Source: Planctomycetota bacterium
Lineage (GTDB): Bacteria; JAJVIF01; JAPKYR01
Direction of reading: 5' to 3'
Assembly: GCA_030614715.1 (NCBI GenBank)
Contig: JAUWTM010000015.1
Location: forward strand, 1-40,907
DNA: 40,907 bases
The translations under genes were made by a program, and so were the position numbers. Shown one piece after another: positions 13,859 through 25,096 of the stretch (positions are counted from its first letter, which is position 1; the number at the start of each line of letters is the position of its first letter). The notes beneath the pieces are model-generated. The model saw only the letters and a program-made list of their open reading frames with translations. It had not been told where the DNA came from and did no database searches.

Positions 13859-13883
13859 TACTATACAATTGTTTGGTATTCGC

Positions 13884-14987
13884 ATGACCCTGTTCAGCGA
13901 AAATACGGACCTCTCTGAACTCGACGATCATATCCCTCTGGCTGCACGCCTGCGTCCGAAAATTGTGTCGGAGATGGTCGGGCAGGGAAGGCTGCTGTCA
14001 GAAGACGGCGCCATGACGCGCATGGTCCGTACCGGGCAGCTACACTCCTTCATTTTATGGGGACCTCCCGGCTGCGGTAAAACAACGCTCGCTCGGGCAC
14101 TTGCTAACGAGCTGAATGTCCACTTCCGCGAGTTTTCAGCGGTTGTGAGTACGGTCAAGGACGTCCGCGCGGTCGTTAAGGAGGCCCGTGAGGAGCGACA
14201 GCTGACCGGACGCCAGACAATCCTGTTCATTGACGAGCTTCATCGATTCAACAAGCTTCAGCAGGACGCGTTTCTCCCGCATATCGAGGACGGAACCATC
14301 ATCCTGATCGGTGCGACAACAGAAAATCCATACTTCTCAATCAATTCGGCGCTTCGCAGCCGTCTGACAGTCTACAAACTCGAACCACTGGAAACCGACG
14401 ACCTCAGGATCCTTGCCGACCGCACGGTTGAGTACTTCAACGCTGACAGGCTCGAGGACGATGCGCCGTACGAACTATCCGACGATGTCCGCGACAGCCT
14501 TCTGATGCTTGCAGGTGGTGACGCCCGTACGTTAATCGGCACGCTTGAAGTGGCAAAATCACTTATCGATGAAAAAACAGGGGGCAGGGGAGGGAAATTC
14601 TCTCAGGATGTTATCGAGAATGCCATGCAGGCTGCGTTCCGCGTCTACGATCGTGCCGGTGACACCCATTATGACACCATCTCTGCCTACATCAAAAGTA
14701 TGCGCGGTAGCGATCCCGATGCAGCAATCTATTACCTGGCAAAAATGCTCTCAAGCGGCGAGGATCCGAAATTTATCGCCCGACGTCTTGTTATCCAGGC
14801 TGCGGAAGATGTCGGCAACGCAAATCCGATGGCGCTGGTTGTCGCGAACGCCGCACGTGAGGCGGTCGAGTTCATCGGAATGCCCGAAGCCATGATCCCG
14901 CTGTCACAGGCAACCATCTACGTTGCCACAAGCCCTAAATCAAATGCTGCTGTATCTGCGATTACCACCGCGATGAAGGATATCTAG
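13884..14987 (+). CDS. rarA: RarA/MgsA replication-associated AAA+ ATPase, stopped early by an in-frame TAG
   Basis: This is the AAA+ protein that acts at stalled replication forks together with SSB. Visible motifs: Walker A GPPGCGKT (residues 60-67), Walker B ILFIDELHRF (about 113-122), sensor-1 region LIGATTENPYFSINSALRSR (about 141-160), and the RarA-specific SGEDPKFIARRLVIQAAEDV and SPKSNAAVSAI segments. The frame ends at TAG 14985-14987 after 367 residues, about 80 short of the usual 440-450. The missing C-terminus follows directly in the same frame (14988-15242). ATG 13884 gives a normal RarA N-terminus; a TTG at 13869 is the alternative. It lies divergent from the DUF389 gene. The product is either truncated or made full-length by readthrough. 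Confidence 0.85.
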   Translation: MTLFSENTDLSELDDHIPLAARLRPKIVSEMVGQGRLLSEDGAMTRMVRTGQLHSFILWGPPGCGKTTLARALANELNVHFREFSAVVSTVKDVRAVVKEAREERQLTGRQTILFIDELHRFNKLQQDAFLPHIEDGTIILIGATTENPYFSINSALRSRLTVYKLEPLETDDLRILADRTVEYFNADRLEDDAPYELSDDVRDSLLMLAGGDARTLIGTLEVAKSLIDEKTGGRGGKFSQDVIENAMQAAFRVYDRAGDTHYDTISAYIKSMRGSDPDAAIYYLAKMLSSGEDPKFIARRLVIQAAEDVGNANPMALVVANAAREAVEFIGMPEAMIPLSQATIYVATSPKSNAAVSAITTAMKDI

Positions 14988-15242
14988 GACGGTAAAAATT
15001 ATCCCCCGCCGCTGCACCTCAGGAACGCTCCCGTCACCGAAATGAAAACCGTGCACGGTCACTCGGAAGGCTATAAATACGCACATTCCTACGATGGCGG
15101 AGTAGTCGACCTTCAATATCTTCCCGAGGAAATGATCGGAACCGAGTATTACAATCCATCACCCCACGGCAAAGAAAAAGCCATCGCGGAATGGCTCGAT
15201 AAATTCCGCAAAGCCCGATCTGTCGATAAAAAGAATCCCTGA
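14988..15242 (+). pseudogene. rarA: C-terminal segment of RarA, in frame beyond the TAG
   Basis: Reading on from TAG 14985-14987 in the same frame gives DGKNYPPPLHLRNAPVTEM, then EGYKYAHSYDGG, LQYLPEEMIGTEYYNPS and a normal stop. This is the conserved RarA C-terminal (oligomerisation) region. No other stop or shift interrupts it, and the full length would be about 452 codons, as expected for the family. A separate start at ATG 15042 has no ribosome binding site and would omit the LHLRNAP motif. So this is a nonsense-interrupted tail, a readthrough product or a sequencing error, not an independent gene. Confidence 0.8.
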
Positions 15243-15265
15243 CCCACAAATTTACTCTGTCATAG

Positions 15266-15450
15266 GTGTCATGTGCTGCCAGCACATGATTATTGGGGAC
15301 TGGCGTATTCAGGGGACTGGCGGACAAATTTGTCGGGACAATAATCGTGACTCCTTTACTAAATCACCAACCCGACAAATTTGTGTGCCTGTCCCTGCTT
15401 CATTTCAAATCAATTCTTGCATCCGTGTCATGTGCTGCCAGTACATGATT
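15266..15450. repeat. Pair of 26-bp direct repeats, each a hairpin
   Basis: Nearly identical 26-bp copies lie at 15266-15291 and 15425-15450 (one mismatch). Each contains CATGTGCTGCCAGCACATG or its one-mismatch version, an 8-bp stem with a three-base loop. They bracket 133 bp containing another dispersed repeat. The layout suggests a small REP/BIME-like or MITE-like element. Confidence 0.65.
15312..15396. repeat. Dispersed repeat, copy A
   Basis: It begins GGGGACTGGCGGACAAATTT and ends near TTTGTGTGCCTGTCCCTGC. GGGGAC and GTCCC form inverted ends, and the palindrome GACAAATTTGTC (15323-15334) lies inside. Copy B is at 19474-19582 and shares both ends plus the internal stretch CACTAAATCACCAAC, with T for the first C in copy A. 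Confidence 0.7.
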
Positions 15451-15514
15451 GAAAGTGACATACATCTGTCCCCATTCTTAATTTTCACTTATACTGTCCC
15501 TCTGGGTGATCCAT

Positions 15515-19444: not shown

Positions 19445-19473
19445 AGTCTCTGTTCCTCAAGTCGCTATGGATA

Positions 19474-19582
19474 GGGGACTGGCGGACAAATTTGTGTGCC
19501 TGTCCCCGCTACATTTCGGGATATTGATCGTCACTCCCTCACTAAATCACCAACCTGACAAATCCGTGTGCCTGGCCCAGCT
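19474..19582. repeat. Dispersed repeat, copy B
   Basis: It opens with the same 20 bases as copy A at 15312, GGGGACTGGCGGACAAATTT, followed by GTGTGCCTGTCCCCGCTACA. A second, diverged half (CTAAATCACCAACCTGACAA, GTGTGCCTGGCCCAGCTACA) follows. It lies between the stop of metH and the start of the AT-rich membrane protein gene. Confidence 0.7.
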
Positions 19583-19594
19583 ACACACTACTTT

Positions 19595-23666: not shown

Positions 23667-24872
23667 TTATGTACCGGATTTAATTCCAGCCTCGTCACGA
23701 AGCACATCGGCCTTGTTCAGCTGCTCCCACGGGAGTTTCAGGTCCGGACGTCCGAAATGTCCGTACGCTGCTGTCTGACGGTAAATCGGGCGTCGCAGGT
23801 TCAGAGTGTCGATAATCGCAGCCGGTCGGAAATCGAAATGCTTCTTGACCAGCTCGAGAATCTTCTCATCCTCGATACGTCCGGTTCCCGAAGTGTCGAC
23901 CAGGATGCTCAGCGGGTGCGCTTTGCCAATCGCGTATGCAAGCTGGATCTCACACTGCTCGGCCAGGCCCGCTGCGACAATGTTCTTGGCAGCCCATCTC
24001 GAAGCGTACGCTGCCGACCTGTCGACCTTAGTGCAATCTTTTCCGCTGAATGCTCCACCGCCGTGACGGGCATAACCGCCGTATGTATCAACAATAATTT
24101 TTCGTCCCGTGACGCCTGAATCGCCGACCGGTCCGCCGATTACGAACTTGCCGGACGGGTTTGTGTAGATCTCGGGATCGGTCTCCATGTAACCGGCCGG
24201 GATTGTGGGTTTGATGACTTCCTCGATCAGCCCTTCACGTATCTGGTCGTTGGTTACATCGGGAGAATGCTGCGTGCTGAGAAGTATCGAGTGTACACGG
24301 TTTGGTTTTCCGTTGATGTACTCCACGCACACCTGGCTTTTGCCGTCAGGTCGAAGCCACGGCAGCTTTCCAGCCTTGAAGATGTCGGCCATCTTGCGGG
24401 TGAGTCCATGCGCCAGCGAGATCGGCAGGGGCATGAGTTCGGGAGTGTCATTGCAGGCGAATCCGAACATCAGGCCCTGGTCGCCGGCTCCGATTTCCTC
24501 GTAAGGATCGTTGCACTCCTTTCCGCGTATATCGAGGGCACAGGATACGCCGCCATCGATGTCAGGTGACTGCTTGTCAATCGCTAACAGCACACCGCAT
24601 GTGCTTCCATCAAATCCGAATTCAGGCTTGTTGTATCCGATATCGAGAATCGTGTCCCTGACCACATCCCTGTATTCGAATACCGCCTTGGTGGTAATCT
24701 CTCCCATCACAAGGATAAAACCAGTGTTGGTCGCACATTCGCATGCGACCCTGCTGAACGGGTCCTGCTTTACGCATTCGTCGAGAATGGCATCCGAAAC
24801 ATTGTCGCAGATCTTGTCGGGATGTCCCGCAGTTACTGATTCCGATGAAAAATAGTAATCTTTAGGTGACAA
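23667..24872 (-). CDS. metK: S-adenosylmethionine synthetase MetK
   Basis: The enzyme makes SAM from methionine and ATP in the cytoplasm. Motifs are intact: [20 protein letters not shown] at the N-terminus, [10 protein letters not shown] (ATP-binding motif), [11 protein letters not shown] and [19 protein letters not shown] (P-loop-like). The length of 401 residues is normal. The start is TTG 24872, supported by GGAGG eight bases upstream and by homology beginning immediately; no in-frame ATG or GTG fits. A SAM-I riboswitch and a consensus promoter precede it, giving feedback repression by its own product. Confidence 0.97.
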
Positions 24873-24966
24873 CTTCTTTTCCTCCAGTACTTGTTCAGGC
24901 CGGTGTTACAGCACCCGTGCCATAAATAATACCAGCATACGTAGCTGGCTGGTTGCCCGTATTTTC

Positions 24967-25081
24967 GCTCATCTTTCTGAAACCTGGATGGGTTTCAGTG
25001 GGAATTGGCACCTTTATCTCTATGTGTGAGACAGGTTGCCGGGCTTCATAGGGCCGATCCCTCTGCCAGCTCTGGATAAAC
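24967..25081 (-). promoter_or_regulatory. SAM-I (S-box) riboswitch upstream of metK
   Basis: Read on the minus strand, the core matches the S-box: GTTTATC, CAGAG, GGCAGAGGGATCGGCCC, TATGAAGCCCGGCAACC, AAGGTGCCAATTCC, then a P4-type hairpin, CAGAAAGATGAGC. The closing helix P1 forms between GTTTATC and GATGAGC. Downstream, before the metK start, are a hairpin CCAGC...GCTGG with only a U-poor tail and a GGTG...CACC hairpin, so control could be translational rather than by clear termination. Confidence 0.93.
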
Positions 25082-25096
25082 GAAACGGTTGATCCA

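Follow-up and report, generated by a model that had tools for sequence, protein, structure and literature searches.

A single in-frame TAG interrupts an otherwise open rarA reading frame in one Planctomycetota genome

DNA-repair proteins of the RarA/MgsA family carry an AAA core (PF00004), AAA_assoc_2 (PF16193) and MgsA_C (PF12002), as in PDB entry 3pvs, which we take to be E. coli RarA. Loss of rarA alone is tolerable. One E. coli study reports strong defects when a rarA deletion is combined with deletion of ruvB or ruvC, and inviability of the rarA ruvB double mutant once recG or recQ is removed (PMC8735627). For genes carrying internal stops, the closest described case is that of Belinky et al. 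2021 (PMC7918605), where readthrough is argued for many stops lying in frame within bacterial genes, only stops common to at least two genomes are kept, and annotation artefacts, sequencing errors and pseudogenes are named as other sources. Here we describe a rarA gene split by a single TAG on a 40,907-nucleotide stretch of DNA (contig JAUWTM010000015.1, referred to below as the window) from the Planctomycetota bacterium assembly GCA_030614715.1, which represents an uncultured lineage.

The rarA frame opens at position 13869 of the forward strand and holds only two stops, a TAG at codon 373 (14985-14987, directly followed by G) and, 84 open codons later, a TGA at codon 458 (15240-15242). Read through from the ATG at 13884, the gene comprises 452 codons, in agreement with the original prediction of one TAG in an otherwise intact frame. 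The LHLRNAP, GYKYAH and YLPEE motifs that it had placed beyond the TAG were likewise found there when the continued frame was translated. The AAA core, AAA_assoc_2 and MgsA_C follow one another in the order seen in 3pvs, with MgsA_C whole only across the TAG. Before the stop, the alignment with 3pvs_A (447 residues) covers residues 13-359 of that chain (E 8.4e-89); unlike 3pvs_A, this RarA is broken at about residue 360 of that structure, inside MgsA_C. Against the 167-position MgsA_C profile, the piece before the TAG matches positions 1-93 (E 1.1e-41), and the 84-residue piece after it, taken alone, matches positions 96-166 (E 6.5e-17); the read-through product scores 223.3 bits over positions 1-166. 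Because the two pieces match adjoining parts of MgsA_C, the continuation is not there by chance. No further AAA_assoc_2 match, and hence no second rarA, was found in the assembly, whose 254 contigs total 4,293,134 bases (87.18% complete) and which, partly from its fragmentation, we infer to be metagenome-assembled.

No relative examined shares this TAG. A search of the phylum returned five genomes including this one, and rarA is free of stops in all four others. At the aligned position, a sense codon is present in 107 of 107 relatives. These derive from 110 rarA loci (30 from a 60-genome survey, including this genome, and 80 kept of 563), minus the locus itself (L002) and two loci, L032 and L033, judged to duplicate L003 and L004 from the agreement of their identities and aligned context. 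The residues in this column (K 36, E 15, R 15, Q 15, A 10, S 7, G 3, T 3, N 1, V 1, L 1) mark a variable, mostly polar position, and 9 of the 107 relatives carry a codon one substitution away from TAG.

TAG otherwise serves as an ordinary stop in this genome. Both of its RF-1 family proteins, release factors 1 and 2, score above their cut-offs (prfA, 482.9 bits against 423.25; prfB, 458.3 against 370). We sampled stop usage over 409,227 bases (the window plus 20 further stretches), mechanically choosing putative genes with a minimum length of 150 codons. Counting the rarA piece, 265 such genes end in TAA (102), TGA (101) or TAG (62). Genes in the window that had been listed as ending in TAG (at 1224, 2957, 3815 and 28804) indeed do so, and the earlier view that genome-wide recoding is unlikely is upheld by this usage together with the presence of release factor 1 (RF1). 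In-frame extensions beyond the stop are of mean and median length 33.5 and 16 codons after TAG, 33.1 and 13 after TAA, and 26.4 and 11 after TGA; coding-like scores above 10 occur in 2 of 62, 4 of 102 and 1 of 100 extensions, respectively. Among the eight highest-scoring extensions other than that of rarA (264 scored), we recognized no second gene cut by a stop: by eye, gene names included, each appears to enter either an adjacent gene lying in frame or non-gene sequence. rarA is thus the only same-protein continuation recognized in the sample.

Nor was a dedicated reader of UAG found, the suppressor or pyrrolysine tRNA raised by the original prediction included. No UAG-reading tRNA is present at the 50 places matching RF00005 (150 of 164 first-look candidates scored; no dedicated tRNA-Pyl model used). 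ARAGORN called 48 of these, none with a CUA anticodon, and the remaining two show anticodons UUG and CCA by eye. The N-terminal profile of PylS has no match in the 87.18%-complete genome, with Methanosarcina acetivorans positive as a control; the C-terminal family gives only two matches, both under the cut-off and lying, by eye, in frames resembling threonyl- and histidyl-tRNA synthetases. As a separate observation from the tRNA survey, one tRNA-like match (L163 101-173, G000:C11:10508-10580), uncalled by ARAGORN, is weak (31.5 bits), has several non-standard pairs and an apparent CCA anticodon, and lies about 2 kb from a normal tRNA-Trp, of which it is perhaps a decayed copy.

We then compared constraint on the two sides of the stop. 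Relative to two genomes of the same family, which are 80% identical, nonsynonymous differences per site amount to 0.159 and 0.157 downstream and to 0.138 and 0.140 upstream; between the two uninterrupted genes of these genomes, the values are 0.154 and 0.112. Among family members, synonymous sites have reached or almost reached saturation. In a three-way comparison, residue changes private to this genome fall at 5 of 82 sites downstream and 37 of 371 upstream (Fisher p 0.40). No relaxation of constraint is visible in these sequences after the TAG. Under a crude Poisson model in which branch lengths were assumed, neutrality lasting for about 5% of the branch or longer would have left a visible trace, which suggests, equally crudely, that any such period was brief, taking up about 5% of the branch at most. 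Therefore, with constraint kept after the TAG, the stop is very young, or an error, or full-length product is still made.

Together, these data are most consistent with a recent nonsense substitution truncating RarA, to which we assign a probability of roughly 0.56; this and the weights given to the other explanations are judgements, not computed values. An in-frame stop faces sense codons in the orthologues, in a genome where TAG is a stop, as in a nonsense-interrupted gene. At this variable and permissive position, a sense codon would recently have become an ordinary UAG stop in the lineage or strain. RF1 would then terminate translation at this codon, yielding a RarA of 367 residues with its ATPase core but without the second half of MgsA_C. 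The function of this truncated protein would probably be lost or strongly reduced, with full-length RarA made only as a trace from basal misreading. With one in-frame stop, an open remaining frame and a restriction to one genome, the locus resembles an ordinary nonsense-mutation pseudogene or single-lesion gene, from which nothing distinctive sets it apart. In-frame stops in bacterial rarA are announced in none of the ten titles listed from 236 literature matches for rarA and stop codon.

Several observations weigh against a nonsense substitution, or against so simple an account of it. A consensus error would predict exactly the same sequence as a real mutation, and an intact downstream part would also fit continued production of full-length RarA. 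Stops also occur in rarA elsewhere: of the 51 other genomes with a rarA-length match (E < 1e-60) among the 60 surveyed, three have a stop inside the match (TGA in G022 and G042, TAA in G018, none of them TAG), the stop in L029 falling close to the end of the aligned stretch. In six of the 107 aligned loci, a stop lies at another position, toward the ends of the aligned stretch. Finally, no same-genus genome was among those returned, and the TAG need not be fixed in the species.

The main rival to a nonsense substitution is an error in one base of the consensus, or a base from a minority strain carried into a fragmented assembly, with the organism's own rarA intact. We consider this possible, though it is not the explanation that we favor. 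Such an error fits the fragmentation and incompleteness of the genome, the one-base nature of the defect in a gene otherwise uninterrupted and without relaxed constraint downstream, and the lack of this stop in all aligned relatives. It is opposed by the failure to recognize a second stop-cut gene among the eight best other extensions of the 409-kb sample, a comparison that registers in-frame stops only and leaves the assembly without an obvious excess of such errors. A nonsense pseudogene and a one-base consensus error are indistinguishable without reads. Of the three explanations first proposed for this locus, recent nonsense mutation and assembly error thus both stand, inseparable without reads, and programmed or suppressed readthrough has gained no positive support.

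Functional readthrough, in which UAG would be misread often enough to give useful RarA and the stop would lower dosage without killing the gene, appears unlikely. Belinky et al. propose such an effect for in-frame stops that bacterial genomes have in common (PMC7918605). The C-terminal part of RarA does keep its constraint, and in-frame stops are described as widespread in bacterial genes, many with a ratio of nonsynonymous to synonymous substitution (dN/dS) below 1, by Belinky et al. (PMC7918605). The stops treated there resemble this one in keeping coding constraint downstream of an in-frame TAG; unlike them, the present stop occurs in one genome only and would not pass the filter of at least two genomes (PMC7918605). 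Neither the aligned relatives nor the other genomes of the phylum share the stop (0 of 107 and 0 of 4). Furthermore, no stimulatory RNA structure was found in the one 120-base stretch folded after the stop (14985-15104): its fold is less stable than that of most shuffled sequences (z +1.39), of which 191 out of 200 are at least as stable. The lack of both PylS and a UAG-reading tRNA in our searches also argues against readthrough. The narrower proposal of useful readthrough in this lineage at the UAG, which lies within the last fifth of rarA, giving short and full-length RarA from one gene as a form of dosage or isoform control, is more doubtful still.

Further candidates were tried and rejected. 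For a split gene with restart, the start-like codons at 15042 and 15051 after the TAG have no evident ribosome-binding site by eye; a purine-rich stretch does immediately precede the ATG at 15132, but a restart there would give a tail of only 36 codons. A suppressor tRNA finds no candidate among the 50 tRNA places. Recoding of UAG in this genome, as pyrrolysine or a reassigned amber codon, is close to excluded: the in-frame TAG itself and nothing else speaks for it, and PylS was not found in the 87.18%-complete genome, RF1 is kept and TAG is not depleted at gene ends.

Table 1. Coordinates of the interrupted rarA, its parts and stop-bearing rarA matches elsewhere (window positions unless a locus or genome is named).
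Feature	Position	Strand	Details
5′ part of rarA, ending at in-frame TAG	13869..14987	+	372 codons from TTG, 367 from likely ATG 13884
Domains in 5′ part of rarA	13869..14987	+	AAA, AAA_assoc_2, first half of MgsA_C
In-frame TAG, seen in this genome only	14985..14987	+	Frame reading and comparison with relatives
In-frame continuation, C-terminal RarA	14988..15242	+	84 codons plus TGA, MgsA_C positions 96-166
MgsA_C domain (PF12002), split by TAG	14706..15206	+	Profile match
Stop-bearing rarA matches elsewhere	L022, L029, G018:C121:48713-49972		TGA in G022 and G042, TAA in G018

Other features of the window and genome were recorded in passing. The non-coding stretch 3′ of rarA (15243-15490), like that at 19473-19585, contains palindromic and gggac...gtccc motifs, and the repeat of 15243-15490 has 20 matches in the genome, itself included. 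These repeats look like the repetitive extragenic palindromic (REP) type, and a gene in L164, named by eye, is a likely REP-associated tyrosine transposase (RAYT). On the reverse strand, an S-adenosylmethionine (SAM) riboswitch (24966-25082, 84.1 bits) lies upstream of a 401-codon open reading frame (23667-24872, also reverse). At 580-2957, an extracytoplasmic function (ECF) sigma factor precedes a protein bearing both a zf-HC2 motif and an HD domain; the two may represent a sigma factor and its anti-sigma protein, the latter fused to the HD domain.

The original observation was accurate and its biology is ordinary, a private one-base event of little overall importance. Should the base be an error, the lesson is that single stops in such assemblies call for read support. 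If it is real, RarA would be on its way out in one lineage of a phylum that has been sampled only thinly, with five genomes found.
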